Shown piece after piece: positions 311 to 56,517 of a stretch of 64,000 nt of DNA. Numbering within the stretch: position 1 is the first letter of the stretch; each line of letters opens with the position of its first letter. The DNA comes from Lentimicrobiaceae bacterium (GTDB lineage Bacteria > Bacteroidota > Bacteroidia > Bacteroidales > F082). The translations under genes and the position numbers were made by a program. The stretch covers positions 50,920-114,919 of the forward strand of contig SUWS01000003.1 in assembly GCA_015061365.1 (NCBI GenBank), in the 5' to 3' direction. Under the pieces are notes generated by a model, which saw only the letters and a program-made list of their open reading frames with translations, did not search any database and was not told where the DNA came from.

Positions 311-344
311 GACAATTAACAATTAACAGTTAACAGTTAACAAT
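311..344. repeat. Heptamer tract (ATTAACA/GTTAACA)n after valS
   Basis: About five consecutive 7-bp units related to GTTAACA follow the valS stop. It is one of many heptamer tracts in this window and is directly followed by the terminator hairpin. Confidence 0.85.
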
Positions 345-378: not shown

Positions 379-414
379 GTTTGAGAGCGGATTTTGATTT
401 TCAGTAGCCTCTAT

Positions 415-498
415 GCGTTAGGGATTGGAGCGGCATCCTTTTGGAGCGCAGCGGAGAAAGATATAGCGGAAAGCCCGACGGCGACAGCCGGAACGCCC
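415..498 (+). repeat. 84-bp dispersed repeat, copy 1
   Basis: GC-richer block running from GCGTTAGGGATTGGAGCGGC to GCCGGAACGCCC. A copy of the same length lies at 26364-26447 on the opposite strand with only a handful of differences by eye. The differences fall partly in short inverted repeats (CCCGACGGCGACAGCCGG; GGAGCGCAGCGGAG against GTAGCGTAGCGGAA), which hints at a conserved RNA or DNA structure. No open frame is shared. The gap 309-693 otherwise holds only the terminator and heptamer tracts. Confidence 0.85.
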
Positions 499-504
499 TC
501 CTTT

Positions 505-630
505 TAAAGTTTATAGTTAATAGTTAATAGTTAATAGTTTATAGTAGTTTTAAAGTTGAAAGTTTAAAGTTGAAAGTTGACGGTTTGCAATTAATGTGTT
601 GAAAGTTGAAAATGGTTTAAGGTTTAAAGT
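505..630. repeat. Heptamer tracts (ATAGTTA)n and (AGTTGAA/AGTTTAA)n
   Basis: AT-rich tract in which 7-bp units TAGTTAA/TAGTTTA give way to AGTTGAA and AGTTTAA units. It fills most of the remaining gap before the convergent SRPBCC gene. No promoter or gene is visible in it. Confidence 0.8.
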
Positions 631-1134: not shown

Positions 1135-1782
1135 TTACATTCTTGCGTCGCTCCAAGCCTGTGGGTCTTTTTTCCATTCCATCAAAGAAGCCAAGTCGTT
1201 TTCTCTGATGTAGTTTTCTTCTGCAGCTTTCTTAATCAACGCGTCATAGTTTGTCAAGGTAAACAATTCGCATTTGTTCTTCTTGAAGTTTTCTGCTGCT
1301 ATATCCATTCCGTAAGTGAAGATGGCGAGCATTCCTTTTATGACGGCGCCTTTTTCGCGTAAAGCCTCAACGGCGTTCAAACTCGACTTGCCTGTAGATA
1401 CGAGGTCTTCGATGATAACGACAGATTGTCCGCTATTGATGATACCTTCGACTTGGTTGTTCATGCCGTGTGATTTTTTCTCGGAACGTACATAAACGAA
1501 AGGCAGTCCTAATTCTTGAGCTACCAACGCACCTTGTGGGATGCCACCTGTTGCTACACCTGCTATCACATCTGGAGTGCCGAACTTATCTAAACACATG
1601 TTTTTGAAGCCTTCACGGATAAAAGTTCTTACCTGTGGATATGATAATGTCACGCGATTGTCACAATAGATAGGACTTTTTAATCCTGATGCCCATGTAA
1701 AAGGATTTGCAGGATTCAATTTAATTGCTTTAATTTGCAAAAGAAAACTGGCAAGAGCCATTGATGTTTCTTGTTCGTTCAT
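1135..1782 (-). CDS. pyrE: Orotate phosphoribosyltransferase
   Basis: Joins orotate to PRPP to form orotidine 5'-phosphate in pyrimidine synthesis. The 215-aa protein starts at the ATG of MNEQETSMALASF (1782). The track's longer ORF runs through the promoter, and its extra 47 residues (MYFQTLDSN...) have no family similarity. Visible motifs are the substrate-binding region NPFTWASGLKSPIYCDNR, YVRSEKKSHG, and the PRPP-binding loop VVIIEDLVSTGKSS (a DLVSTGKS form of the usual D-D-x-x-T-x-G-x-S). It is the first gene of a likely pyrE-SRPBCC operon, divergent from the NUDIX gene with only 26 bp between start codons. Confidence 0.95.
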   Translation of the reverse strand: MNEQETSMALASFLLQIKAIKLNPANPFTWASGLKSPIYCDNRVTLSYPQVRTFIREGFKNMCLDKFGTPDVIAGVATGGIPQGALVAQELGLPFVYVRSEKKSHGMNNQVEGIINSGQSVVIIEDLVSTGKSSLNAVEALREKGAVIKGMLAIFTYGMDIAAENFKKNKCELFTLTNYDALIKKAAEENYIRENDLASLMEWKKDPQAWSDARM

Positions 1783-1805
1783 AAAATTAACCTTTAAATT
1801 TTTCG

Positions 1806-1813
1806 CAAATGTA
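1806..1813 (-). promoter_or_regulatory. -7 promoter element of pyrE
   Basis: On the minus strand this reads TACATTTG, a match to the Bacteroidetes -7 consensus TAnnTTTG, 23 nt before the pyrE start codon. It overlaps the predicted ATG of the divergent NUDIX gene (1809). No good -33 TTG is seen at the expected distance. Confidence 0.6.
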
Positions 1814-2432
1814 TAGACTTTTTTGCAATAATAAAACCCTTGAGTGCATAAATTTTTTTGAACAATGCATAGATGTTGAAACGGATGAGTCGTTATATTC
1901 GAGTCAAGTGTTTGAAAATACATTAGATAAGATAAAAAAATGGCTCGAAGACGGTGACGAAAATTTAGTTATTGATGATGTTGAAAACAAGATTTTGTCA
2001 GCTGTGATAAAAAAAATATTTCGTTTTGCGCCGGCGGCTGGAGGTGTAGTTGTGGTCGACAATTCGGTAGTCGCGATAGAAAGGAACGGAATTCCAGATT
2101 TGCCCAAAGGTCATATCGAGAGAGGCGAGTCGCCCGATGCAGCCGCATTAAGAGAAGTTCGTGAAGAGACAGCAATCTCAAATCTAACGATAATAAGACA
2201 ACTTCCATCTACGTTTCATTGCTATCTTCTCGACGGACAATGGACACTGAAACAAACTTCGTGGTTTATGATGAAGACCGACAACGGATTCAAGTCTAAA
2301 CCTCAAACCGAAGAAGGAATATCAAAAGTGTTCCTCCTAAATAAAGATAATGTTAATGATTTTTTAGAAAAGACATTCATCTCTTTAAAGATTACGTTGG
2401 GAGAAGAGATTTTAAAGATAATTAACAGTTAA
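1809..2432 (+). CDS. NUDIX hydrolase
   Basis: A 207-aa NUDIX-fold protein. These enzymes hydrolyse nucleoside diphosphates linked to another group; the substrate cannot be told here. The Nudix box is at about residues 102-124, GHIERGESPDAAALREVREETAI, which fits GX5EX7REUXEEXGU except that the last Gly is Ala. All metal-binding Glu residues (REVREE) are present. The N-terminal ~75 residues (MYRLFCNNKTLEC...) resemble the extra domain seen in Bacteroidetes NUDIX proteins, which supports the start at 1809 even though that ATG sits on the pyrE -7 box. The stop codon TAA lies inside a (GTTAACA)n repeat, so the last residues (INS) are repeat-encoded. Confidence 0.85.
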   Translation: MYRLFCNNKTLECINFFEQCIDVETDESLYSSQVFENTLDKIKKWLEDGDENLVIDDVENKILSAVIKKIFRFAPAAGGVVVVDNSVVAIERNGIPDLPKGHIERGESPDAAALREVREETAISNLTIIRQLPSTFHCYLLDGQWTLKQTSWFMMKTDNGFKSKPQTEEGISKVFLLNKDNVNDFLEKTFISLKITLGEEILKIINS

Positions 2433-2490
2433 CAATTGACAATTAACAGTTAATAATTAACAGTTGACAATTTACAATTAATAATTTAGG
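2421..2490. repeat. Heptamer tract (ATTAACA/GTTAACA/ATTGACA)n
   Basis: Near-continuous 7-bp units that include the stop codon of the NUDIX gene and fill the gap to coaD. Confidence 0.85.
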
Positions 2491-2530
2491 ACAATAGTTT
2501 AAGGGCAGAAGTAGAAATGCGTATTCATAA

Positions 2531-2563
2531 AGTCCGTTGTCTGTTGACTGTTGTCCGTTGACA
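2531..2563 (-). repeat. CAACAGA-type element, intergenic copy upstream of coaD
   Basis: Plus strand AGTCCGTTGTCTGTTGACTG.... On the minus strand it is four heptamers (GTCAACG, GACAACA, GTCAACA, GACAACG) followed by GACT. It is the same roughly 32-nt element found in frame inside birA, ftsH, hldD and the methyltransferase gene. It ends about 10 bp before the coaD start codon. Confidence 0.85.
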
Positions 2564-2572
2564 ATAAAAAAT

Positions 2573-3049
2573 ATGAGAAAAGCAGTATTTTCGGGTTCGT
2601 TCGACCCTATAACAAAAGGTCACGAGGATATAGTATTGAAAGCCATGCCTCTTTTCGATGAGGTGATTGTGGCTGTAGGAATTAACAACGTAAAGAAATG
2701 CGCATTTCCTTTAGAGCGGCGTCTTCAGTGGATAAAAGATACTTTTGCAGATTATCCAAAGGTGAAGGTTACGCATTATGAAGGACTTACCGTCGACTTC
2801 TGTAAAGATAACGGAGCTGATTTCATCATAAGAGGTTTGCGTGGTAGTGCCGACTTGGAATATGAGACGACGATAGCGGAAGCAAACAAAAAGATAAATC
2901 CTGAAATAGAGACGATATTTTTCTTGACAGAGCCGTCGCTGAGATGCGTGTCGTCGACAGTGGTCAGAGATTTGCTGAAACATAATTGCTCGGTTGAGCA
3001 GTTCGTTCCGGAGAAGGTTTGTATTGAATCTGAGAAACTGAGAATCTGA
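2573..3049 (+). CDS. coaD: Phosphopantetheine adenylyltransferase
   Basis: Transfers AMP from ATP to 4'-phosphopantetheine, the penultimate step of coenzyme A synthesis. The start is the ATG of MRKAVFSGSFDPITKGH (2573); the track's 12 extra residues are translated from an upstream repeat. The 158-aa length is normal. Seen are the nucleotidyltransferase motif FDPITKGH (T-x-G-H) at residues ~10-17, the FIIRGLRGSADLEYE region, and the C-terminal ISSTxVR-type motif as CVSSTVVRDLL. The last residues (IESEKLRI) and the TGA stop are encoded by an AATCTGAG/AAACTGAG octamer tract, so the native C-terminus has been replaced or extended by repeat DNA. Confidence 0.95.
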   Translation: MRKAVFSGSFDPITKGHEDIVLKAMPLFDEVIVAVGINNVKKCAFPLERRLQWIKDTFADYPKVKVTHYEGLTVDFCKDNGADFIIRGLRGSADLEYETTIAEANKKINPEIETIFFLTEPSLRCVSSTVVRDLLKHNCSVEQFVPEKVCIESEKLRI

Positions 3050-3075
3050 GAAACTGAGAATCTGAGAAACTGAGA
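3021..3075. repeat. Octamer tract (GAATCTGA/GAAACTGA)n over the coaD stop
   Basis: Six to seven 8-bp units alternating between AATCTGAG and AAACTGAG. The tract begins inside coaD and supplies its stop codon. The same octamers follow secA and the merR gene. Confidence 0.85.
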
Positions 3076-3091
3076 ATTGGCTAAAGCCTTA

Positions 3092-3457
3092 GTTCAAAGT
3101 TCAAAAGCCTTGGTTCAATAAATCTCTCGCAGAGACGCAAAGGACGCGAAGTTCAAAGTTCAAAAGCCTTGGTTCAATAAATTTCTCGCAGAGACGCAAA
3201 GGACGCGAAGTTCAAAGTTCAAAAGTCTTGGTTCAATAAATTTCTCGCAGAGACGCAAAGGACGCGAAGTTCAAAGTTCAAAAGTCTTGGTTCAATAAAT
3301 TTCTCGCAGAGACGCAAAGGACGCGAAGTTCTAAGTTCAAAAGCCTTGGTTCAATAAATTTCTCGCAAAGACGCAAAGGACGCGAAGTTCTAAGTTCAAA
3401 AGCCTTGGTTCAAAGCTCAAAGTTCAAAGCTCAAAGTTCAAAGTTCAAAGTCTTCTA
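3092..3457. repeat. 59-bp tandem repeat array with heptamer flank
   Basis: Five full 59-bp units (starting at 3092, 3151, 3210, 3269 and 3328) and a partial sixth, nearly identical to one another. Each unit combines TTCAAAG heptamers, AAGCCTTGGTTCAATAAAT, and TCTCGCAGAGACGCAAAGGACGCGAA. After 3411 it decays into (CTCAAAG/TTCAAAG)n. There are no unique spacers, so this is not a CRISPR array. Together with the octamer tract it fills the gap 3050-3504, where no gene is visible. Confidence 0.95.
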
Positions 3458-3504
3458 ATGTTTCCGGATTTAAAATATTAATGATAATATCACGTTATCT
3501 TATC

Positions 3505-4914
3505 ATGAAAAAGTACATTTTAATAATAGCGTTATTTTTAAATCTTAATTTATTTTCACAAAATGTCTCTATCAAAGGAGCTGTCAGGCAGTCGGCAAAT
3601 AGCGATAAGCAATCAACATCATTGGTTCGTCTTCTGACATATAACGATATGTTGACTTGCGAGCAGACTACGATTTATGAGACTTATACTGATGATAATG
3701 GAAATTTCGTCATTGAGACAAATATCGACGATATAGTCATGGCACAGATCGCTGTTGATTTGGAGCGTGTTGACATTCTGTTACGTCCCGATTCTGATTA
3801 TGAAATTGAGATAATCATACCAGAACAAAATGATGACGTTTCTTATTTCGAACGCCAGAGTCCAACCTTAAAAATGATTAAGGAAAATGACGATGACTTG
3901 TATTATCAATATTCCATGTCGAATATGATTATCGACGATTTTGTCTTAAATAATTTTAACAAACTTTATAGAGGACGACAGATTTCTTTGTTGGATAGCT
4001 TAGATGTCAATATAAATAAGGAATTGGGAGATATAAGCTCCGATTTTGTGAGAGACAATTTACAATATCGTAAGGCGGCAATTCAGATGATGGTAAATAA
4101 CAACGCGAAGAGAGTCATTGAAAACTATTACAATAAGAAAGAGATACTCTATTCCAATCCAGCGTATATGAATTTGTTTCAGGAAATTTTCACTAATTAT
4201 CTTGCCTCACGACAGTTTAATCCTTCAGAAATACGCAACCTGCTTTATGCCGACTATGACAGTTTCTTAAAATATGTTAAGGAAAAAGATGTCTTTTTGT
4301 CAGATAATGAAGATTTGTCAGAGTTGATTGTAGCTTGGAACCTGAGACGTATGTATTATGAGATGCCAGACGAAAAAAATGAAATCTTGAACTATCTCGA
4401 TTATATCGCGAAACACACGAAAAGTGTAGAGAACAGAAAGTTGGTTGTTGATATTTTAACACAAATCAAGAGATTGTCGTTCGGTTCAGATGCTCATGGT
4501 TTTTCTTTAAAAGACAAGGATGGCAGAACAGTTACTTTGTCCGATTTTAAAGACGACCTCGTACTTATGCAATTTGTCGATCATAAGTCTAATATGACAG
4601 ACTATCAATTTGAGATGTTGGATAATCTTTCGAGACAATGGCAAGACACGATTCAGATTTTCACTATCGCCAACAGGGAATATTTCGAAGAATATAAGCA
4701 GATGTTTGAAGATAAAGGATATGAATGGACGTTGTTAAACCTTGAAGACGACATACTTCTTCTCGAGAAATATCAGATCAGAATCTTCCCGGATTATGTG
4801 ATTCTCGGAAAAGACAATAAGATTGGAATGTCGCCAGCGCCGTCACCCGATCAATATTTGGACTTTCATGTGAGAAGAATTTACAACTATTATAAAAAAA
4901 ATGATAAAAAATAA
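3505..4914 (+). CDS. Exported protein with redox-inactive thioredoxin-like C-terminal domain
   Basis: A 469-aa protein; I take the start at MKKYILIIALFLNLNLFSQ, a good signal peptide, rather than the ATG eight codons upstream. Residues ~20-330 are alpha/beta with an early beta-sandwich-like section (GAVRQSANSDKQSTSLVRLLTY) and a long helical middle, as in Bacteroidetes proteins that carry a thioredoxin domain at the end. The last ~130 residues (SLKDKDGRTVTLSDFKDDLVLMQFVD...) follow the AhpC/TSA/TlpA pattern. The place of the CxxC motif reads FVDHKSNM, so no catalytic cysteines remain, and the protein is probably not an oxidoreductase. The secA promoter starts right after its stop codon. Confidence 0.7.
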   Translation: MKKYILIIALFLNLNLFSQNVSIKGAVRQSANSDKQSTSLVRLLTYNDMLTCEQTTIYETYTDDNGNFVIETNIDDIVMAQIAVDLERVDILLRPDSDYEIEIIIPEQNDDVSYFERQSPTLKMIKENDDDLYYQYSMSNMIIDDFVLNNFNKLYRGRQISLLDSLDVNINKELGDISSDFVRDNLQYRKAAIQMMVNNNAKRVIENYYNKKEILYSNPAYMNLFQEIFTNYLASRQFNPSEIRNLLYADYDSFLKYVKEKDVFLSDNEDLSELIVAWNLRRMYYEMPDEKNEILNYLDYIAKHTKSVENRKLVVDILTQIKRLSFGSDAHGFSLKDKDGRTVTLSDFKDDLVLMQFVDHKSNMTDYQFEMLDNLSRQWQDTIQIFTIANREYFEEYKQMFEDKGYEWTLLNLEDDILLLEKYQIRIFPDYVILGKDNKIGMSPAPSPDQYLDFHVRRIYNYYKKNDKK

Positions 4915-4915
4915 T

Positions 4916-4923
4916 TATCTTTG
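4916..4923 (+). promoter_or_regulatory. -7 promoter element of secA
   Basis: TATCTTTG, a match to TAnnTTTG, followed by GCAC. It lies two bases after the preceding stop codon and leaves a leader of about 110 nt before secA. Confidence 0.65.
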
Positions 4924-5042
4924 CACAACATTTGTTAAAATGATTTCGAGATTTTTATCTCACGATAAAAAGTAACTATAATATAAATTGTGCATCATGC
5001 AAAATTATGAATCAAGCATCATGCATTAAGAATTAAAGAAGT

Positions 5043-8000
5043 ATGGGATTTTTAGCTAAACTCTTCGGTAATAAGGCATCGCGCGACAACAAAGCCTTGC
5101 AGCCGATTTTGGATAAGACATTAGAAGCTTATGAGAAAATAAAGAATTTAGATACTGACGCTCTTCGTCATAAGACAGTTGAGTTTAAGGAATATATCAA
5201 CAACTACATCGCTGACGACGAAGCTCGCATCAAAGAACTGAAACTGAAAGCTGAAGATGAAGACCTTGACCTCGAGAAGAAAAACGACATTTACGAACAG
5301 ATAGATAAATTGGAGAAACATGTCCTCGAAAGAATCGAGGAAGCTCTCAACAATATTATGCCTGAAGCTTTTGCTGTCTTGAAAGAAACAGCGAAACGTT
5401 TCAAAGAGAATGAGGTTGTAGAAGCGACAGCTACAGAATTAGACCGTGACCTCGCAGCGAGATTCGATCATATCAACGTTGAAGGCGACAAGGTTTATTA
5501 CGATAACAGCTGGGTTGCAGGCGGCAACACTATAACTTGGGACATGGTTCCGTATAACGTACAGGTCATTGGCGGTGCTGTCTTGCATCAAGGTAAGATC
5601 GCTGAGATGGCAACTGGTGAAGGTAAGACCTTAGTCGCGACCTTCCCTGTATATCTCAACGCTCTCGCAGGTCGTGGTGTTCACGTAGTTACCGTTAACG
5701 ATTATCTCGCGAAACGTGACTCCGAGTGGATGGGAACGATATATGAATTCCTCGGTCTCACCGTAGACTGCATCGACAAGCATGAGCCTAACTCACAGGC
5801 ACGTCGTAACGCTTATCTCGCAGACATCACCTACGGAACAAACAACGAATTCGGCTTCGACTACCTCCGTGATAATATGACAGGTAATCCAGAAGAACTC
5901 GTTCAACGAAAACACCATTTCGCTATCGTCGACGAGGTTGACTCCGTCTTGATAGACGACGCTCGTACACCTTTAATCATATCCGGACCGACACCACGCG
6001 GTGACCATCAAGAGTTCGACATATTGAAAGGAGACGTGGTGAAACTTTATGAAGCACAAAAACGTCTCGTGACTTTATGCCTCGCCGAAGCAAAGAAAAT
6101 ATTGACCGACCCTAATGCTACTGAAGACCAAAAACGTCATGGAGCCGACCAGCTTTTCCGCGCTTACAGAGGTCTTCCTAAAAACAACGCCTTGATTAAG
6201 TTCTTAAGCGAAGAAGGTATGAAGACCCTCATGCAGAAGACCGAAGGCTTTTATCTCCAGGAACAACAGAAAAATATGCATATCATCGACGATGAACTTT
6301 ATTTCGTCATCGATGAGAAACTTCATAGCGTCGACCTTACAGAGAAAGGTATCGACGAACTTACCAAAGCATACAACGACCAAACGTTCTTCATCTTGCC
6401 TGACGTAGGTTCTGAGATAGCCGAGCTCGAACGCAGCGAACTTCCTAACGACGAGAAACTGATGAAAAAGTCGGAACTGCTCCGCAACTATTCAGAGAAA
6501 TCGGAACGCCTGCATACAGTGCAACAATTACTTAAGGCATATACCTTGTTCGAAAAGGATGTCGACTATGTCATCATGGACAATAAGATTAAGATTGTTG
6601 ACGAACAGACAGGACGTATCATGGAAGGTCGTCGTTGGTCGGACGGTCTGCATCAGGCTGTAGAAGCAAAGGAAAACGTCCATATCGAAGCTGCGACACA
6701 GACATACGCGACAATCACTTTGCAGAACTACTTCCGTATGTATCATAAGTTGGCAGGTATGACAGGTACTGCTGAGACTGAAGCCGGCGAGTTCTGGGAC
6801 ATCTATAAGTTAGATGTAGTCGTTATTCCTACCAACAAGCCTATCGCTCGTATCGACGCGGAGGATCTGATATATAAGACAAAACGTGAGAAATATAATG
6901 CCGTCATCGATAAGATAGAAGAGTTCGTTGCTGATGGTCGTCCTGTTCTTGTAGGTACGACATCCGTTGAGGTTTCAGAGCTTCTCTCCAGAATGCTTAC
7001 TCGTAAGGGCATCAAACATAATGTCTTGAACGCTAAGTTGCATGCCAAGGAAGCTCAGATCGTTAAAGACGCAGGTCAAGCTGGAACGGTAACAATAGCA
7101 ACTAATATGGCTGGTCGTGGTACTGACATCAAGTTGGGACCAGGAGTTAAAGAGGCAGGCGGTCTCGCCATCATTGGCACAGAACGTCACGAGTCACGCC
7201 GTGTTGACCGTCAGTTACGTGGTCGTTCAGGTCGTCAGGGCGATAATGGTAGCTCTCAGTTCTTCGTGTCGTTGGAAGACGACCTCATGCGTATGTTCGG
7301 CTCAGAACGTATTGCTCCTATCATGGATAAATTAGGTCTTCAGGAAGGCGAAGTGATCCAACACTCGATGATCACAAAACAGATTGAAAAGGCTCAGAAG
7401 AAAGTAGAAGAGAATCACTTCGGAACACGTAAGCATCTTCTTGAATATGACGACGTGATGAACTCACAACGCGAGGCGATATACGAAAAGAGACGCCATG
7501 CCTTGTTCGGAGAACGTCTTTCAATAGACATCAACAATATGATGTATGACCTCGGCGAATCGTTGATAGAGAAATATCAGGAAGTCAACGACTATGACGG
7601 ACTTAAATTAGAAATCATCTCCAAGATGGGTATCGATGTTCCTTTCGACGAAGACGAATTTAAACGCTCAAAACTCGATGTGCTCGCAGATAAGTTGTTC
7701 GAGACAGCATTGGAAGTCTATAACAATAAGACACGTATCATAGGTGAGAAGACACTTCCTGTGATAGAGAACGTTCATAAGAACACACAATATGAAAACA
7801 TCCTGATTCCGTTTACCGACGGTAAGAAGAGCATGAACGTGGTTGTCAACCTCAAGAAAGCTGTAGAAAACGGAGCGAGAGAAATAACATTGGCGGTAGA
7901 GAAATTCATTACGCTCGGCATTATCGACGAATCATGGAAAGAACATCTCCGCGAATTGGACGACCTTAAACAATCTGTAAGAAATGCGACTTACGAACAG

Positions 8001-8330
8001 AAAGATCCTCTCTTGATTTATAAATTCGAGTCGTTCAACCTGTTCAAACAGATGATACAAAAGATAAATACAGATGTGATCTCATTCTTGATGCGCGCCG
8101 ACGTTCCTATGCAAGACGGAAGTCAGGTGAGAGAACAAAGAGCGAGAGCCATCGACAGAAGCAGGCTGAAAGAACAACGCAACGACCTCTTGTCGCAAGC
8201 TCACAGCAACACACAAGAACGTCAAGTGACACAGCCTATTCACGTGGAGAAAAAAGTCGGACGCAACGACCCTTGTCCTTGCGGTAGCGGCAAGAAATAC
8301 AAAAACTGCCACGGAAAAGATGAATTATAG
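5043..8330 (+). CDS. secA: Protein translocase ATPase SecA
   Basis: The motor that pushes unfolded preproteins through SecYEG. At 1095 aa it is about 200 residues longer than E. coli SecA, as is usual in Bacteroidetes, mostly through insertions in the N-terminal and helicase regions. Motifs seen: Walker [11 protein letters not shown] (~residue 189), the DEAD-like [45 protein letters not shown], and a C-terminal zinc-binding tail [19 protein letters not shown] (CxCx8CH) that in other SecAs binds SecB or ribosomes. Transcribed alone from its own promoter. The stop is followed at once by octamer repeat DNA. Confidence 0.98.
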
Positions 8331-8428
8331 AATCTGAGAAACTGAAAATCTGAGAATCTGAGAATCTGAGAATCTGAAAATCTGAGAATTTTCTCAGGTT
8401 TTCAGGTTTTCAAGTTCTCAGATTTTAA
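8331..8428. repeat. Octamer tract (AATCTGAG)n with inverted half
   Basis: About seven AATCTGAG-type units run into their own inverse (TTCTCAGGTTTTCAGG...TTCTCAGATTTT), making a palindromic arrangement between the convergent secA and birA genes. It slightly overlaps the 3' end of birA (stop at 8418). Confidence 0.85.
8377..8402. terminator. Repeat-derived bidirectional hairpin between secA and birA
   Basis: AAAATCTGAGAA / TTCTCAGGTTTT with a 2-nt loop; one T-G wobble. The T-rich arms on both sides suit a terminator for both converging genes. It is built from octamer repeat units. Confidence 0.6.
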
Positions 8429-9194
8429 ATACGATTTCCTTCAAATCACAAACGACTTCACGGTCGTTTTTTTCTTTTAAGATGAGACGACCAAATCTGT
8501 CATAACCAGTAATTATCATTTCTTTAACCTTACCTTCGTGTTCGTAAAAAGCCCACTGATTGTAGCGATACAATTTATCAGTGTAGAGATGTTGAAAATT
8601 GAAAGTTGAAAGTTGAAAGTTGAAAGTTGAGTTAATCGAATTGGAAGATGCCTGTTGTCTGTTGACTGTTGTCTGTTGACTAAGTTTATTGCATATCTCA
8701 TTCAATAACATTTCTAAATCATAATCCTTTCCCGTAATCATTTTCATCGAGATAGGATTCGGAAGACTTTCGTCGAAAGACGTTTGATTTACATTAAGTC
8801 CGATTCCAATGATGGAAGTACCAAGCATCACACCTTTGATTTCATTCTTTATCAAGATGCCTGCGATTTTTCTGTCGTTGAAATAAATGTCGTTAGGCCA
8901 TTTTATGAAAAGATTTTCTTCAGGAAGATAATTTTTCAAAACGTTAATCATGGCGACAGAAACCATCTGAGTGAGAAGAAACTGATCTTCGGCTTTGAGA
9001 AAACTCATATCAAGAGCTATGCTGAAAAGCAGATTCTTTCCATCTTCGCTTTGCCATATATTCCTCCCCTGCCCTTTTCCCGATGTCTGAAAATCGGTGA
9101 CGACAACATTATCAGCAACATCTTCACCTTTATCTAAAAGATTCTGAAGGTAAGAATTAGTAGAATCTATATTTTTGAAATGGGTTATTTTCAT
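8418..9194 (-). CDS. birA: Biotin-[acetyl-CoA carboxylase] ligase with in-frame repeat insertion
   Basis: Attaches biotin to carrier proteins by way of biotinyl-AMP. The 258-aa protein starts at MKITHFKNIDSTNSYL (9194). The N-terminal DNA-binding domain of E. coli BirA is absent, so this is the monofunctional type. Seen: DSTNSYL, the biotin/ATP loop SGKGQGRNIW (~38-47), KWPNDIYFNDRKIAGILIKNE (~98-118), and GIGLNVN (~130-136). Residues ~172-202 (SQQTTVNRQQASS...FNFQLSTFNFQ) are translated from a CAACAGA-type element plus a GTTGAAA-type tract. The insertion lies between the catalytic core and the small C-terminal domain (YRYNQWAFYEHEGKV...), where a helix is expected, and the frame stays open. 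Confidence 0.93.
   Translation of the reverse strand: MKITHFKNIDSTNSYLQNLLDKGEDVADNVVVTDFQTSGKGQGRNIWQSEDGKNLLFSIALDMSFLKAEDQFLLTQMVSVAMINVLKNYLPEENLFIKWPNDIYFNDRKIAGILIKNEIKGVMLGTSIIGIGLNVNQTSFDESLPNPISMKMITGKDYDLEMLLNEICNKLSQQTTVNRQQASSNSINSTFNFQLSTFNFQHLYTDKLYRYNQWAFYEHEGKVKEMIITGYDRFGRLILKEKNDREVVCDLKEIVFKI
8591..8681 (-). repeat. Composite in-frame repeat insertion inside birA
   Basis: Read on the coding strand: a ~30-nt CAACAGA-type element (8652-8681), a short linker, then (CAACTTT)n heptamers (8591-8630). Together they encode about 31 residues with no stop codon. Confidence 0.9.
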
Positions 9195-9243
9195 GATGCG
9201 AAAATAAACATTTTGCACAATCAATAGTGCAGTTTTTGTAAAA

Positions 9244-9312
9244 TAATGCACAATTCATAATGCACAATTTATAATTCATAATGCATAATTCATAATGCAT
9301 AATTTATAATAA
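9244..9312. repeat. Heptamer tract (CATAATG/CATAATT/CACAATT)n
   Basis: Seven-bp units in tandem fill the divergent gap between birA and the next lipoprotein gene. Confidence 0.8.
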
Positions 9313-10672: not shown

Positions 10673-10747
10673 AATTCTCAGGTTTTCAGATTCTCAATTT
10701 CTCAGATTCAAAAAAAATCCGTTGTCTGTTGTCTGTTGTCTGTTGAC
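10673..10747. repeat. Octamer tract plus CAACAGA-type element upstream of rsfS
   Basis: TCTCAGAT/TTTCAGAT octamers are followed by TCCGTTGTCTGTTGTCTG..., the intergenic (reverse) orientation of the CAACAGA element. The tract ends 7 nt before the rsfS -7 box. Confidence 0.85.
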
Positions 10748-10753
10748 TTTTAT

Positions 10754-10761
10754 TATCTTTG
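10754..10761 (+). promoter_or_regulatory. -7 promoter element of rsfS-ftsH
   Basis: TATCTTTG followed by GCAG. The heptamer element just upstream offers a TTG every 7 bp; the one at 10729-10731 leaves 22 nt to the -7 box, inside the range used by Bacteroidetes promoters. Confidence 0.65.
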
Positions 10762-10787
10762 CAGAAATAATTTTTTCAACTATAAAT

Positions 10788-11188: not shown

Positions 11189-13189
11189 ATGGAGAACAAC
11201 AATCCTTTTGGAAATTTTTCAAACGACAAAAACGACAACAAACCAAAAAAGAAGTTCAATTTTTATTGGATCTATGTAATCTTGACGGCGGTATTTCTCG
11301 GTTCTATATTTTTCAACGGACCGAAAAGCGCGGAAGAAATCGACAAAGGCAAATTAATCACATTACTGAAAGACAGAGATGTCGAGAAGATTGACCTCGT
11401 CAACGGAGAAGTTGCGGAGATCTATCTTAACGAGTCGGGAATGAACAAATATTTCCCTAACGATAAATCTAACGCTTTCAACCAAATACCGAACTACACA
11501 TTCCGCATAGGTTCATTGGAACGTTTCGAACAAGACATTGAAGCCGCACAGGAAGGTTTCGCCGATCCCGTTTACGCCAATATGGTTAAACGTCACAACT
11601 GGGGAAGTGAAATCATCTCATGGATCTTACCTATTTTATTAATATTCGGATTCTGGTTCTTGATAATAAGAATGATGGGACGCAACGGAGGTGCCGGCGG
11701 CGGAGGTAACGTCTTCAATATCGGTAAGTCGCAGGCTAAACTTTACGACAACGCTTCTGATGTTAAGGTCACATTTAAAGACGTTGCCGGCTTGGAAGAA
11801 GCGAAAGAAGAAGTGGTTGAAGTGGTCGACTTCCTCAAGAATCCTAAGAAATATACACGTCTCGGCGGCAAGATTCCGAAAGGCGTTTTGTTGGTAGGCC
11901 CTCCTGGTACAGGTAAGACATTATTAGCCAAGTCTGTTGCCGGTGAAGCTAACGTTCCTTTCTTCAGCATCTCAGGTTCCGACTTCGTAGAGATGTTCGT
12001 TGGCGTGGGTGCTTCGAGAGTGAGAGACTTATTCAAACAGGCAAAAGAAAAGTCACCGAGTATAATATTTATTGATGAGATCGACGCCATAGGTCGCGCT
12101 CGTAGCAAGAGCCCGATGAGCGGTGGTAACGACGAAAGAGAAAGCACCTTGAACCAGCTCCTTACAGAGATGGACGGATTCGGCACTAACTCAGGCGTCA
12201 TCGTCATAGCAGCGACAAACCGCGCCGACATCTTAGACAAGGCTCTTATGCGTGCCGGACGTTTCGACCGTCAGATCTACGTCGAACTCCCTGACCTCAT
12301 CGGCCGTAAGGAGATTTTCGAGGTACACATGCGTAAGCTCAAACTCGCCGATGATGTCGACAAAGAGTTCTTAGCAAAACAGACACCTGGATTCTCGGGA
12401 GCCGACATCGCTAACGTCTGTAACGAGGCTGCTCTCATCGCGGCACGTCGTAACAAAGAATCTATCGAGAAACAAGATTTCTTAGACGCCATCGACCGTA
12501 TCGTCGGCGGTCTTGAAAAGAAAAATAAGGTCATCACCGATTCAGAGAAAAAAGTCATCGCTTTCCATGAGGCGGGTCATGCCACAACGAGCTGGCTTTT
12601 GGAGTTCGCTCATCCTCTCGTAAAGGTCACCATCGTTCCTCGCGGCAAGGCTCTCGGCGCAGCATGGTATCTGCCTAACGAACGCCAGATCACCACAAAA
12701 GAACAGATGTATCATGAGATGATAGCTACACTCGGAGGTCGCGCCGCTGAACAACTCATCTTCGGTCATATATCCACCGGCGCGCTTAGCGACTTGGAAA
12801 AAGTTACGAAACAAGCTACGGCAATGATCGCTTATTATGGATTGGACGAAAGAATAGGTAACAGAAGTTATTACGACTCGACAGGTCAGCAAGATTATGC
12901 TCTGACAAAACCATTCAGCGAGAAGACCGCGGAAATAATCGACGAGCAAGTAAGCAAACTTATCGAGAGCGCATATCAAGAAGCTCTTAGAATATTAGGC
13001 GAAAATATCGACGGACTGACACAACTCGCCAACAAACTCATCGACAAGGAAGTGGTTTTCGGCGACGACCTTGAGATGATATTCGGCAAACGTCCGTGGG
13101 TCAAAGAGGAAATTGATTTTCCGAAAGAAAGTCAACAGACAACAGACAACGGACAACAGTCTGAGTCGACAGAAGAGAATTTAGTTTAA
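11189..13189 (+). CDS. ftsH: ATP-dependent zinc metalloprotease FtsH
   Basis: Membrane-anchored AAA+ protease that degrades misassembled membrane proteins and regulatory proteins. Two membrane segments (FYWIYVILTAVFLGSIFF ~25-42; IISWILPILLIFGFWFLIIRMM ~143-164) flank a periplasmic loop. Then come Walker A GPPGTGKT (~237), Walker B IIFIDEIDA, the second region of homology with the arginine finger (ADILDKALMRAGRFDRQI), and the zinc site HEAGH (~459-463). The C-terminal tail KESQQTTDNGQQSESTEENLV is encoded by a CAACAGA-type element. Its stop codon TAA lies in a following (AGTTTAA)n tract. Normal FtsH tails are variable, so this is probably harmless. Confidence 0.98.
   Translation: MENNNPFGNFSNDKNDNKPKKKFNFYWIYVILTAVFLGSIFFNGPKSAEEIDKGKLITLLKDRDVEKIDLVNGEVAEIYLNESGMNKYFPNDKSNAFNQIPNYTFRIGSLERFEQDIEAAQEGFADPVYANMVKRHNWGSEIISWILPILLIFGFWFLIIRMMGRNGGAGGGGNVFNIGKSQAKLYDNASDVKVTFKDVAGLEEAKEEVVEVVDFLKNPKKYTRLGGKIPKGVLLVGPPGTGKTLLAKSVAGEANVPFFSISGSDFVEMFVGVGASRVRDLFKQAKEKSPSIIFIDEIDAIGRARSKSPMSGGNDERESTLNQLLTEMDGFGTNSGVIVIAATNRADILDKALMRAGRFDRQIYVELPDLIGRKEIFEVHMRKLKLADDVDKEFLAKQTPGFSGADIANVCNEAALIAARRNKESIEKQDFLDAIDRIVGGLEKKNKVITDSEKKVIAFHEAGHATTSWLLEFAHPLVKVTIVPRGKALGAAWYLPNERQITTKEQMYHEMIATLGGRAAEQLIFGHISTGALSDLEKVTKQATAMIAYYGLDERIGNRSYYDSTGQQDYALTKPFSEKTAEIIDEQVSKLIESAYQEALRILGENIDGLTQLANKLIDKEVVFGDDLEMIFGKRPWVKEEIDFPKESQQTTDNGQQSESTEENLV
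13131..13160 (+). repeat. CAACAGA-type element, in frame in the ftsH tail
   Basis: GTCAACAGACAACAGACAAC... encodes QQTTDNGQQ. Same orientation and frame as the copies in birA, hldD and the methyltransferase gene. Confidence 0.9.
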
Positions 13190-13216
13190 AGTTTAAGGTT
13201 TAAAGTTTAAGGTTGA
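13184..13216 (+). repeat. Heptamer tract (AGTTTAA/GGTTTAA)n over the ftsH stop
   Basis: Four to five AGTTTAA/GGTTTAA units start at the ftsH stop codon. Confidence 0.8.
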
Positions 13217-15028: not shown

Positions 15029-15215
15029 CTGCGTAAATATAGGGGATTTCTATAAATTGCTTTGCAAGTGATTTATGAATTTTTCTTTGAGAAGATTTTT
15101 GTTTATCTTGAGAGAACATAGCGAGCTATGTGATTGAAAGATAGACGAAAATATTCCAAGAAAAAACATAAAGCACGCAAAAGTTCCTATCATAATTGTC
15201 ATAATTTATTTAAAC

Positions 15216-15289
15216 GGGGAATTTATAGAAGTCCCCTATAAGTAGTGACGTGTCAATGATGCTGTATAACTAAACACCGACACGTCACT
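15216..15289. repeat. Two hairpins in the perM-ddl gap
   Basis: The first is GGGGAATTTATAGAAGTCCCC (15216-15236). The second has an 11-bp perfect stem AGTGACGTGTC / GACACGTCACT (15244-15289) and is related to the GAGACGTGTC hairpins elsewhere. The second lies 16 nt past the ddl stop on the minus strand and may help end ddl transcription, but no T-run follows. Nothing else is visible in 15029-15304. Confidence 0.65.
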
Positions 15290-19471: not shown

Positions 19472-20562
19472 TTATGACAGAACGTTTTGAAGATATAAAA
19501 GAAGAAGAAAAGAAGCAGGATTTCATCGGAAAATATCAAGACGAAGAAACTGAAGAATCTACAGAACTTTACGAACATTTCCGTATCGTGGCGGATCCTG
19601 GTCAGTCGTTAGTGCGTATCGACAAGTTTCTACAGAACAGAATGGAGAACGTCTCTCGCAATAGGATTCAGAATGCGGCAAAGGCAGGAAGCATCTTAGT
19701 GAACGGCAATCCTGTCAAGCAGAATTATAAGATAAAACCTAACGATGTGGTCTCTATCGTACTTTCATTCCCGCCACGCGAAGTAGTCATAACTCCGGAA
19801 AATATTCCTTTGGAAATAGTCTACGAGGACGATGATGTCATCATCATAAACAAACAAGCCGGTCTTGTCGTGCATCCTGGTCACGGTAATTTCGATGGTA
19901 CACTTCTGAATGCCTTGGCATATCATTTTAAGAATACAAATCAGAAGGTAGAAAACGGATTCGGTTATCTCGTACATCGTATCGATAAAGACACTACAGG
20001 TCTGATGATCGTGGCGAAGAACGAAACCGCGCAGACAGTATTAGCGAAACAGTTTTTTGAACATAGCATCACGCGTCGTTATCAGGCTCTCGTATGGGGC
20101 GATTTTGAAAATGATGAAGGTACGATAGAAGGTAATATCGGACGCAGCCTTAAAGACAGGATAGCGATGGCGGTGTTTCCAGACGGCTCGCAAGGAAAGA
20201 CAGCCGTTACACATTATAAGGTCTTGGAACGATTTAATTATGTTACCTTAGCAGAATGTCGTTTGGAGACGGGACGCACACATCAGATACGCGTGCATTT
20301 CCAACATATCGGACATCCTCTCTTCAACGATTATCTATATGGTGGCGACACGATTATCAAAGGTACTACATTCTCGAAATATCGTCAGTTTATCGAGAAC
20401 TGTTTCAGAGAGATACCACGTCATTGCCTGCATGCCAAGATTTTAGGTTTCGTGCATCCGACAACGGGAAAAGAAATGTATTTCGACTCGGAACTGCCAA
20501 AAGATATGGTGGCAGTCTTAGATAAATGGCGTAATTATATAAAAAGTAGAATTGACAATTGA
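19468..20562 (+). CDS. rluD: RluD-like 23S rRNA pseudouridine synthase
   Basis: Isomerises uridines in 23S rRNA (helix 69 in E. coli). The 364-aa protein has an N-terminal S4 RNA-binding domain (~48-105, SLVRIDKFLQNRMENVSRNRIQNAAKAGSILVNG) and a catalytic domain with HRIDKDTTGLMIVAK, whose Asp (~172) is the nucleophile. Further motifs are AECRLETGRTHQIRVH and GHPLFNDYLYGG. A second ATG two codons downstream is equally possible as start. The final residues RIDN and the TGA stop run into a GACAATT-type repeat tract. There is a non-conserved, charged ~45-residue N-terminal extension. Confidence 0.93.
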   Translation: MIMTERFEDIKEEEKKQDFIGKYQDEETEESTELYEHFRIVADPGQSLVRIDKFLQNRMENVSRNRIQNAAKAGSILVNGNPVKQNYKIKPNDVVSIVLSFPPREVVITPENIPLEIVYEDDDVIIINKQAGLVVHPGHGNFDGTLLNALAYHFKNTNQKVENGFGYLVHRIDKDTTGLMIVAKNETAQTVLAKQFFEHSITRRYQALVWGDFENDEGTIEGNIGRSLKDRIAMAVFPDGSQGKTAVTHYKVLERFNYVTLAECRLETGRTHQIRVHFQHIGHPLFNDYLYGGDTIIKGTTFSKYRQFIENCFREIPRHCLHAKILGFVHPTTGKEMYFDSELPKDMVAVLDKWRNYIKSRIDN

Positions 20563-20644
20563 TAATTAACAATTAACAATTTACAATTAACAATTGACAA
20601 TGATAGATTAATAACTGTAAACTGTAAATTGTAAACTATAAACT
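20551..20644. repeat. Heptamer tract (ATTAACA/ATTGACA) and ACTGTAA units
   Basis: Seven-bp units fill the gap between rluD and hldD and supply the rluD stop codon. The second half reads ACTGTAA/ATTGTAA/ACTATAA. Confidence 0.8.
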
Positions 20645-20648
20645 GATT

Positions 20649-21755: not shown

Positions 21756-24032
21756 ATGGACAATGGACGGATAATAACAGTCTGCTGTCAGCGTTTTGTT
21801 GGCAGTATCAACTCAAAGCTCAAAGCTCAAAGCTCAAAGCTCATAGTTGTTCTTTTATCTTTTGTCTTTTGTCAGAATCTCATTGCCCAAACCAACGATT
21901 CCATCACTCGGCCTCGCGTTGGTGTAGTTCTCAGCGGTGGAGGAGCTAAAGGATTCGCCCACATCGGCGTACTCAAAGTGATAGAGGAGTCGGGGTTGCC
22001 GATAGATTACATCGCGGGCACGAGTATGGGCAGTATCGTCGGCGGACTTTATTCCATAGGATATTCGCCGGAGACTATGATTCGTTTAGTGAAAGAGCAG
22101 AACTGGGACGCTGTGATGTCGGACGCCATTCCTCGCAAATATATATCCGTAGATGATAAAATATTAGATCGTCATTATCTTGCCACTTTCCCTTTTAGAA
22201 ACCGTAAGATCGAGATGAAGTCGGCTATTTATGACGGCGCGATGGTGAATCTGCTTTTGGCTCGACTTACGTCGCCAGTCTATAACATAAGGAACTACAG
22301 TGAATTATCGGTTCCGTTTTTATGTGTGGCTGCCGACATAGAAACGGCGGAGGCTTACGAGATGACGAGAGGCAACTTGCAGCGTTCTATAAGGGCGTCT
22401 ATGTCGATCCCGTTTTATTTCACGCCAGTAGAGGTAGACGGACGACTGCTCATCGACGGTGGAATGAGAAATAATTTCCCGGTACATAACTTAAGAGACA
22501 AAGGACTTGACATTATAATAGGTGTCAACGTTCAACGTGATTTTCGGAAGAAAGACGACCTCAACTCTCTCGCTAAAATCCTCGACCAGATGATAGCCAT
22601 GACTGACATCGACGCTAATATGAAAGCGCAGGAAGATGTCGACATCCATATAAAACCTAACTTATCGAATTTCGGCATGATGGATTTTAATTATTATGAC
22701 ACCATCATCGCTCTCGGTGAACAGGCGGCACGCCAATATCTTCCTGAATTTAAACGCTTAGCTGATTCTATCAAGTCGATAGAAGATTATACTTTGGAAC
22801 GTCCTGATATAGAACCTCTCGACACCATATTCGTGATCTCGTTAAAAGTGAAAGGCGTGAAGCAGGAAAGCGAGAACTTCATAAAGAAATCATTAGGAAA
22901 ACATTATCCGGCAACGATGGCAATTGACGATATCGAGACTTCCATTATGAGAATTTACGCCACCGGATATTTCAGCGATATATGGTATGAACTCGAACCT
23001 GCCGTTAAAGGCGTCAACTTGGTTATTCATTGCAAAGAGAGAGAAGAAGAGACAGTTTCCGTGGTAGCTCATTACGACAGCGACTACGGAATAGGAATCT
23101 TAGCTAATGTCACCTTGAAAAATATCTTGAAATTTCCTACACGTTCAACATTGTCGGCGGATATTAACATAGCTGAAGATCCTTACTTCAAACTTCGTCT
23201 TCATTCCAATGTGTCGCAGAAATTTAAATATGGTGTCGACCTCTCTGTGATAAGTCTGTTTATGAATCAATATAGCGACTATGTAATTAATAATTCATAC
23301 AGCGTGCAAGACAATAAGTTAGATCTCTTCTTTGAATTTATGCCTAATTTAAAACGTCAGTTCAGAATCGGTACGGCGGCGAATTATGTTCACCTTCGCG
23401 ACAACCTGATACATACCGTCAGTTCGGATAATTACGACTTTATCAGTTACGCATATTTCAACTATTATATCAACAATGAAGATTCGCCGACATTCGCTTC
23501 GAGAGGTTGGAAATTCAATCTCAATGGTAAGTATATCATGCCTGTGATAAAAATGGATGACGGAAGCATGATGAAAAACTCCATCGTTTTAAAAGCTGAT
23601 GTCAGCGGTTCTATAGCAATAGGGAAACGTCATTCCTTGAAAATAGGAGCGACGTTAGGTTCATCTTTATTGCAAGAAGAACCACCTCTCAGCTACCAGT
23701 TCTTCGTAGGTGGACAGTCGAATATGAACTATTTTGATAATATCATATCTTTCGACGGATTGAGGTTTACCCAACTATACGGCGACCATATAGCTATCGC
23801 AAAGATGTCGTGGCAATATAACTTCTACAAGAACTTGTATGCCATCGCCAATGTGAACGGAGGCTATATAAATTCTGACTATAATAGTTGGTTCTCTGAC
23901 AAGAGTTTTGTTTTCGGTTGCGGACTGACGTTTGGTATTGAGACAATGGCAGGTCCTATAGAGTTAAGTCTCATGGGAAGTAACAGATGTTCCGACTTAG
24001 TAGGGTTTTTAAATGTAGGTTATTGGTTTTAA
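21756..24032 (+). CDS. Patatin-like phospholipase fused to POTRA and outer-membrane barrel
   Basis: A 758-aa protein of the PlpD/type Vd kind. A signal peptide (hydrophobic KLIVVLLSFVFCQNLIAQ, ~28-45) is followed by a patatin domain (~50-330) with the oxyanion loop VVLSGGGAKGFAHIGVL, nucleophile GTSMGS, and catalytic Asp in IDGGMRNNFPV. A single POTRA-like module follows (~350-430), then a ~16-strand barrel to the C-terminal Phe (GYWF), as expected for an outer-membrane protein. The only ATG in frame is 21756, giving an unusually long n-region of ~27 residues. Part of that region (SKLKAQSSK) is encoded by (CTCAAAG)n heptamers. pyrH follows after 23 bp. Confidence 0.9.
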   Translation: MDNGRIITVCCQRFVGSINSKLKAQSSKLIVVLLSFVFCQNLIAQTNDSITRPRVGVVLSGGGAKGFAHIGVLKVIEESGLPIDYIAGTSMGSIVGGLYSIGYSPETMIRLVKEQNWDAVMSDAIPRKYISVDDKILDRHYLATFPFRNRKIEMKSAIYDGAMVNLLLARLTSPVYNIRNYSELSVPFLCVAADIETAEAYEMTRGNLQRSIRASMSIPFYFTPVEVDGRLLIDGGMRNNFPVHNLRDKGLDIIIGVNVQRDFRKKDDLNSLAKILDQMIAMTDIDANMKAQEDVDIHIKPNLSNFGMMDFNYYDTIIALGEQAARQYLPEFKRLADSIKSIEDYTLERPDIEPLDTIFVISLKVKGVKQESENFIKKSLGKHYPATMAIDDIETSIMRIYATGYFSDIWYELEPAVKGVNLVIHCKEREEETVSVVAHYDSDYGIGILANVTLKNILKFPTRSTLSADINIAEDPYFKLRLHSNVSQKFKYGVDLSVISLFMNQYSDYVINNSYSVQDNKLDLFFEFMPNLKRQFRIGTAANYVHLRDNLIHTVSSDNYDFISYAYFNYYINNEDSPTFASRGWKFNLNGKYIMPVIKMDDGSMMKNSIVLKADVSGSIAIGKRHSLKIGATLGSSLLQEEPPLSYQFFVGGQSNMNYFDNIISFDGLRFTQLYGDHIAIAKMSWQYNFYKNLYAIANVNGGYINSDYNSWFSDKSFVFGCGLTFGIETMAGPIELSLMGSNRCSDLVGFLNVGYWF
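21812..21842 (+). repeat. (CTCAAAG)n tract inside the signal-peptide coding region
   Basis: Four perfect 7-bp units encode about residues 19-29, the charged region of the patatin-barrel signal peptide. Confidence 0.85.
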
Positions 24033-28446: not shown

Positions 28447-28545
28447 TTTCTCAGATTTTCGGTTTCTCAGATTTTCAGATTCTCAGATTCTCAGATTTTC
28501 AGATTCTCAGATTTTCAGATTCTCAGATTTTCAGATTCTCAGATT
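28447..28545. repeat. Octamer tract (TTTCAGAT/TCTCAGAT)n
   Basis: About twelve 8-bp units directly after the merR stop codon, the same family as the tracts at coaD, secA and rsfS. Confidence 0.88.
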
Positions 28546-28884
28546 CTATTTATTCTCTTTACTCTCAAGTTCCTTGTCAAGTTCCAATAAAAATTTCTTT
28601 GTTTTCTCCAATGTCATCAAGACTGTCGTCTTTCTTTCTAATTGGTCGAAGTCTTTTTTAAGGGCGTCTTTAGCACCTTGCAGTGTATAGCCTTGAACTT
28701 TGACGAGCTGGTAAATCATACGGAGATAACGAAGGTCACGTTGTGTAAACATTCTGTTGCCCTTGTTACTCTTACGAGGTCTCAATACAGAAAATTCACT
28801 TTCCCAATAACGTATGAGAGAGGTGTTGACGTTAAACATCTCAGCCACTTCACCTATGCGATAGTATAATTTTTCGTCATTCAT
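28546..28884 (-). CDS. MerR family transcriptional regulator
   Basis: A 112-aa DNA-binding protein with the MerR winged helix-turn-helix at residues ~7-75 (YYRIGEVAEMFNVNTSLIRYWESEFSVLRPRKSNKGNRMFTQRDLRYLRMIYQLV) and a C-terminal dimer helix. No effector domain or cysteine sensor is present. This short form with RYWESEF and RKSNKGNR is common in Bacteroidetes. It lies 2 bp downstream of the M23 peptidase gene, so they form an operon. The target is unknown. Confidence 0.9.
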   Translation of the reverse strand: MNDEKLYYRIGEVAEMFNVNTSLIRYWESEFSVLRPRKSNKGNRMFTQRDLRYLRMIYQLVKVQGYTLQGAKDALKKDFDQLERKTTVLMTLEKTKKFLLELDKELESKENK

Positions 28885-33574: not shown

Positions 33575-33613
33575 AAAATAAATTATGAATTATGCATTAT
33601 GAATTATGAATTG
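33575..33613. repeat. Heptamer tract (AATTATG/CATTATG)n
   Basis: Five 7-bp units between the convergent fic and rdgB genes. They are reverse in orientation to the tract upstream of the lipoprotein at 9357. Confidence 0.8.
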
Positions 33614-56366: not shown

Positions 56367-56374
56367 ACTACTTA

Positions 56375-56516
56375 AAGTTTATAGTTTATAGTTTATAGTT
56401 AATAGTAGTGTTGGAGTTTAAAGTTTATAGTTAATAATTATTCAGATAAACTTTTATACTTAAAAACTTTTAACTTTCTAACTACTATGAACTATAAACT
56501 ATCAACTTTTAACTAT
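56375..56516. repeat. Heptamer tracts (ATAGTTT/ATAGTTA/AACTATA)n
   Basis: AT-rich 7-bp units in the gap between hutH and the membrane-protein operon; the second part is roughly inverse to the first (TATAGTTTATAG against CTATAAACTATC), so the region can fold back. Confidence 0.78.
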
Positions 56517-56517
56517 A

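Follow-up and report, generated by a model that had tools for sequence, protein, structure and literature searches.

How can tandem arrays that have a period in common, and not a sequence, come to lie close together in the same genome? The question is raised by a 64,000-nt stretch of DNA from a Lentimicrobiaceae bacterium (the window; positions below refer to it unless another locus is named), in which a preliminary description noticed short arrays of seven unit types, each with a period of 7 or 8 nt. All seven types are present in the window as short arrays, as identified with Tandem Repeats Finder. Reports of heptamer arrays go back to 1990 and concern many bacteria. On balance, those described here are probably heptameric and octameric simple-sequence arrays of this known kind, which vary in length by whole units, spread from locus to locus and gradually alter their sequence.

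Heptad and octad arrays in the window and its genome

The interval 505–630 is intergenic and flanked on both sides by convergent open reading frames, which end at 308 (+ strand) and 694 (− strand). It contains (TTAATAG)6, alternating GTTTAAA and GTTGAAA units and additional GTTGAAA copies. The corresponding arrays extend over 504..545 (TTAATAG/TTTATAG, six units) and 549..580 (GTTTAAA alternating with GTTGAAA, the AGTTGAA type of the preliminary description, also readable as AAAGTTG). Further heptad arrays are composed of GTTCAAA/GCTCAAA (six units, 3408..3451), ATAATTC/ATAATGC (9.7 units, 9243..9310), CTCAAAG (4.6 units, 21812..21843) and AATTATG (4.6 units, 33581..33612). A 59-bp tandem repeat of 5.5 copies (3091..3413) includes a pair of GTTCAAA heptads as well as a stretch of CGCAGAGACGCAAAGGACGCGA. 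Octads of the AATCTGAG type are found at 3026–3077, 8329–8389 and 28448–28547, in the first case as three 16-nt dimers of GAATCTGA/GAAACTGA (3026..3077) and in the last as 12.5 units of TCAGATTY (28448..28547).

A scan for matches at lags 7 and 8, as proposed in the preliminary description, covered 344,554 bases (∼345 kb) of the 2.94-Mb draft genome, which consists of 115 contigs (G000); the window occupies 50920–114919 of contig 98. It returned 98 arrays at lag 7 and 26 at lag 8, compared with none at either lag in a first-order Markov control. Periods of 5, 6, 9, 10, 11 and 13 gave 0–1 arrays each. The 98 lag-7 arrays fall into 26 consensus classes. The step spectrum was then resolved in 349 intergenic regions (68 kb) of G000 and two sister species, G027 and G009, by counting exact lag-match runs of at least 9. 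Lags 7, 14, 21 and 28 have 129, 132, 84 and 46 runs, and lags 8, 16 and 24 have 43, 51 and 27; each of the remaining lags from 4 to 30 has 0–7, versus about 2–4 expected. Outside strong arrays, the excess is found at 7 (24 versus 3.6), at 8 (12 versus 3.0) and at multiples of both, and at no other lag. A set of 80 loci with flanks from many phyla, which was chosen by one exact heptad array and is not a random sample, contains further arrays in these flanks: lag 7 accounts for 100 of them, lag 8 for 20, lag 6 for 10 and lag 9 for 7. The preliminary description took the period, rather than one mobile sequence, as the common feature of the arrays. The lag spectrum bears this out and fits a process with a fixed step of 7 or 8 nt.

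The arrays had also been described as intergenic. This is true of most of them: although 89% of the sample consists of predicted genes, gene-internal arrays number 22 out of 151. The exceptions include several arrays in linkers near protein C-termini, such as that of birA, and a CAACAGA array at 13130..13157 (13133–13159 in Tandem Repeats Finder) lies within a gene near its C-terminal end. Two other loci of the genome, L006 (7204–13780) and L007 (2677–7082), contain a row of similar-sized genes of ∼2 kb, all of which carry an in-frame array of the CAACAGA type close to the C-terminal end, and heptad arrays, some of them as hairpins, are located between these genes. An artefact of short-read assembly is unlikely, because arrays also occur in relatives of the class that are represented by a single contig, for example G350.

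Dispersed elements of other kinds share the window with the arrays. An Rfam search of the window for known repeated RNAs returned just one tRNA and one Flavo-1 RNA (RF01705; 26378–26452, − strand). An element related to Flavo-1 lies at about 414–498 (+ strand), and copies of Flavo-1 or this relative are numerous in G027 and G009. Another dispersed element, of ∼200 bp (15038–15241), is present at over 30 sites in G009, many of which are contig ends, and at a few sites in G027.

Unit vocabularies and turnover between sister species

The units had been called unrelated, which is not the case in this genome. Among the heptads used at least three times, 28 of 29 types belong to one network of single substitutions, and this network has 56 edges compared with 20.5 ± 5.2 in letter-shuffled controls. 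AAC or AAT (RTT on the opposite strand) occurs in 93 of the 98 units of G000 (75 expected) and in 80 of 99 units of the multi-phylum set (58 expected); the octads of other sets have no such excess. A universal GTT anchor was considered and rejected. GTT-N4 counts do not exceed those of the reversed pattern in several genomes, G000 included (91 versus 283), and the triplets came out mixed in an unbiased column test, so that just a weak AAY/RTT excess is left. Transition-only variation, which would have been a sign of RNA pairing, was discarded too, as transitions exceed transversions only mildly.

Within a genome, units recur from site to site. For four members of the genus, 78% of within-genome site pairs have a unit in common, versus 5% of pairs between genomes, figures that are indicative in that the sites were selected by the RTT pattern among the matches listed. 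The contrast was reached by none of 2000 label permutations of these listed sites. From this shared vocabulary we infer that units are copied between loci. Alternatively, each array may have arisen by slippage at its own locus, with no exchange between loci. Orthologous coding ends do contain near-repeat seeds for such events (in one case, ATTAACAGATAA of G027 corresponds to ATTAACAGTTAACAATTGAC of G000), and one gene end carries octads in G009 but heptads in G000. Random seeds, however, would not give the same units at the majority of loci in a genome and other units in its relatives, and the proportion of within-genome pairs with a shared unit reaches 98% in G014 and 100% in G017 among the sites listed, compared with the 5% between genomes. 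A purely local origin is therefore very unlikely.

Between sister species, arrays come and go and change in length by whole units, and an array can keep its place while the order of its variants changes. Synteny of the window with G027 and G009 was established by DNA search. The 41 orthologous intergenic pairs with G027 comprise 7 with arrays in both genomes, 5 with arrays in G000 only and 29 with arrays in neither. Four arrays, at 2432, 3049, 13189 and 34212, face short, array-free orthologous regions in both sister species. The first of these (AATTAAC/AATTGAC, 9.6 units, 2420..2486) spans a stop codon (gene end at 2432), the second is the octad array at the 3′ end of a coaD-like gene, and the third (GTTTAAA/GTTTAAG, 13183..13214) runs across a stop codon. 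Just upstream of the start of the coaD-like gene, a GTTGTCC/GTTGACT array (2536..2562) corresponds to about two units in G009 and to none in G027. AATTAAC/AATTGAC and AACTGTA arrays extend across a gene end at 20550..20645; here (20562), G000 has heptads, G009 has octads (AACTCTAG/AATTCTAA) and G027 has no array.

One clear case of copy-number change by whole units is provided by the array at 9243–9310, which in G027 is exactly 35 nt (five units) shorter between nearly identical flanks. Two inverted heptad arms at 56372..56517 (AGTTTATA... and ...AACTATAAACT) are kept in G027, with the order of the unit variants permuted between the two genomes. In birA, the arrays GTTGAAA (5.7 units, 8591..8630) and CTGTTGT/CTGTTGA (8652..8681) are in frame. 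The birA linker has 45–47 residues in 14 relatives and 60, 52 and 48 residues in G000, G027 and G009, respectively, and it is written in heptads only in these three. At the site 8652..8681, G027 has CAACAGA arrays and G009 CAACAGC arrays, and other genus members have no array; the CAACAG units of the three sister species differ in their last base, and further unlike heptads lie alongside. Local copying of whole units, together with an exchange of words between loci, would account for the presence and absence of arrays, the change of length in unit steps, the permuted variants and the dialects.

Placement of arrays relative to genes

Gene ends were predicted with a dicodon-based gene finder built for this analysis. 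Of 119 array edges that face a stop codon, 51 are no more than 5 nt away from the gene end, whereas arrays placed at random in these regions would give 9.5; the start side has no enrichment (10 of 109 edges, 7.6 expected). In the three sister species, 84 stop-anchored arrays were counted among 501 gene ends. A cruder ORF set likewise placed 35 of 85 stop-side edges of G000 at gene ends (5.2 expected). With this ORF set, stop anchoring is weaker in the 80-locus set (31 of 116, 8.8 expected), in which the start side exceeds expectation as well (15 of 90, 8.1 expected), and there is none in the few arrays sampled from further genus members (5 of 15, 4.7 expected). In the open-licence literature we found no earlier description of stop-codon anchoring.

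Two simple accounts of this placement were rejected. The insertion of arrays is not a source of new stop codons, since C-termini keep their length: they agree within three residues in 34 of 41 ortholog pairs with stop-anchored arrays and in 101 of 119 array-free controls. Nor are arrays confined to terminators or promoters, as they are found in tandem, convergent and divergent intergenic regions alike.

The surroundings of some arrays are recurrent. At 312..344, an ACAATTA/ACAGTTA array (4.7 units, with ACAATTA/GTTAACA as a further form) lies 2–6 nt past a stop codon and is followed directly by a terminator-like hairpin that has a T run. A family of terminator-like hairpins, GTAGAGACG...CGTCTC, is located directly 3′ of stop-anchored heptad arrays at 345–378 and at many other loci (L009, L017). 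GTTGWCY arrays, whose TTG is repeated with a 7-nt period ahead of a promoter −7-like element, are found 8–10 nt upstream of a TATCTTTG box at 10718–10770 of the window and at L012 (13432) and L022 (19414). In the window, the array consists of 3.6 GTTGTCT units (10721..10745), followed by the TATCTTTG −7-like box at fixed spacing.

Stop-codon anchoring would be expected if the arrays were selected RNA or DNA elements, serving as the arms of stems, as spacing between a stop codon and its terminator, as stop modules outside the reading frame or as arrays bound by proteins that need a 7- or 8-nt spacing. Inverted arms are in keeping with this. They are formed, for example, by the octad arrays AGAATCTG (7.6 units) and TCAGGTTT (four units) between the convergent ends of two genes (8329..8426), and arms that score at least 20 occur in 24 of 77 regions with arrays, where a control with swapped halves predicts 11.8. 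The same applies to the sense-strand stop codon contained in the units of 74 of the 84 stop-anchored arrays, which is partly explained by 30 arrays that overlap the stop codon, and to the fixed 8-nt distance of GTTGWCY arrays from the −7-like box, seen in 2 of 11 arrays listed. Arrays are, however, freely gained and lost at housekeeping genes between sister species. They occur in sense and antisense orientation and in both intergenic and coding DNA, no unit sequence is common to all species, and two thirds of the array regions have no strong inverted partner. We thus regard selected elements as an unlikely explanation. For simple-sequence arrays that spread by copying, the sites behind stop codons and in protein linkers are most likely those at which copies are tolerated. 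The arrays may have a role in the spacing between genes and terminators.

Origin of the fixed step

How would arrays of this kind arise? In the mechanism we propose, whole units would be copied with slippage, which lets arrays grow and shrink. A new array would be seeded where short near-repeats match arrays that already exist and copy them by recombination or a switch of template, and continued exchange among loci would give rise to a species dialect. The period is shared and the sequence is not, because the copying of whole units inherits the period and leaves the sequence free to drift. Mismatch repair does not act on loops larger than about 4 nt; it would remove shorter periods and would not set an upper limit. 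Loss of MutS was ruled out as a cause, as MutS1 is intact in G000, G009 and G027. The step of 7 or 8 nt most likely reflects the length of primer–template duplex that the replicative polymerase must hold to extend a slipped end. Polymerase slippage at about 7 nt has been proposed for heptameric simple repeats, with the step tied to the DNA segment that contacts the polymerase (Mrazek et al. 2007, as cited in PMC4679880 and PMC4692102). Two points count against our explanation. Generic slippage predicts varied unit lengths, and lags 5, 6, 9 and 10 are at chance, short repeats included; slippage alone also does not predict stop-codon anchoring.

Another candidate is a novel copying activity with an intrinsic step of 7 or 8 nt, a preference for gene 3′ ends and the ability to copy words between loci, which would yield an evolving species dialect with a fixed step. 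We consider such an activity quite improbable. A dedicated enzyme that writes the arrays, such as a telomerase-like reverse transcriptase (RT) with a short RNA template, is highly improbable. The confinement of the step to 7 and 8 and the species-specific vocabularies across many unlinked loci would suit such an enzyme, and the bacterial RT system DRT10 is reported to produce tandem-repeat DNA from an RNA template (PMC12632851). That telomerase-like product, however, needs an RT and a repeat-encoding RNA in one genome, and RVT_1 was not found in many array-rich, highly complete genomes, for example G085, G071, G134 and G232. The sole RVT_1 gene of G000 is the RT gene of a diversity-generating retroelement (DGR), although RTs too divergent for RVT_1 and other families would escape this model. 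The DGR is located at L274 (G000:C65), positions 1721–6826 on the − strand. Its template repeat (TR) lies at the start of the RT ORF, a bAvd-like gene is included, and an 869-aa fibronectin-type protein, whose end is Lcl_C-like, carries the variable repeat (VR) there; the two repeats have 150 of 172 identities, with mismatches at TR adenines.

The preliminary description also looked to a conserved protein that would mark genomes with arrays, and held that arrays in all relatives, regardless of gene content, would speak against one. In a hand tally of 28 array-rich and 267 other genomes of the class, RVT_1 is present in 13 and 82 genomes, respectively. SbcD, whose absence was considered as a permissive factor, is over the cut-off in 5 of the array-rich and 49 of the other genomes, which is no association. 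Neither protein is therefore required. The XseA model has no match above the cut-off across the whole genus and is thus uninformative here. RTT-N4 arrays of six units are carried by all 36 genus genomes tested, which argues against a particular protein as their mark within the genus; in the class, six-unit GTT-N4 matches occur in 127 of 295 genomes.

Whole-unit copying of simple sequences also agrees with arrays reported elsewhere. The preliminary description found the number of unit classes unusual for one region, which is overstated, since heptamers are over-represented among the long simple repeats of many bacteria. As here, 7-nt units exceed other lengths in these prokaryotic repeats (Mrazek et al. 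2007, as cited in PMC4679880 and PMC4692102); the arrays studied here differ by the additional 8-nt step, by all other lags being at chance and by their starts at stop codons. The short tandemly repeated repetitive (STRR) sequences of the cyanobacteria Calothrix and Nostoc likewise comprise several heptamer units per genome, three being reported for Calothrix (PMC4692102), and are mostly intergenic. In contrast to STRR, the present arrays have a larger, species-specific vocabulary, octads and in-frame arrays in protein linkers, and their host phylum differs, the context being that of Bacteroidota (Flavo-1 RNA, TAnnTTTG boxes) and not cyanobacterial. The TAACTGA repeats of Beggiatoaceae, cyanobacteria and Bacteroidetes (PMC4679880) are also intergenic heptamers with presence and absence among close relatives and 7-nt indels, such as those between Cyanothece strains (PMC4679880). 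Whereas that family has one dominant unit, mostly just upstream of start codons, the arrays here have many units and mostly follow stop codons, and TAACTGA is absent among the array consensus classes listed for G000. Finally, the GGGAATC and GGGGA(C/T)T repeats of Xanthomonas and Nostoc (PMC4692102) are heptamers, some in inverted pairs, that lie between the same genes in related species and vary in length and sequence, as do the arrays here. They are G-rich and possibly quadruplex-forming, whereas the present arrays are mostly A+T-rich. As far as the open-licence literature goes, we found no earlier description of a sharp spectrum of 7 and 8 only that includes octads, or of species dialects with a fixed period.

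Taken together, the genus offers an unusually clean test bed for the origin of such arrays, with a step of only 7 or 8 nt, word turnover between sister species, empty sites and placement at stop codons. If a property of the polymerase sets the step, purified polymerases of these species could reveal it directly. If a novel enzyme sets it, comparison within the genus narrows the search space.
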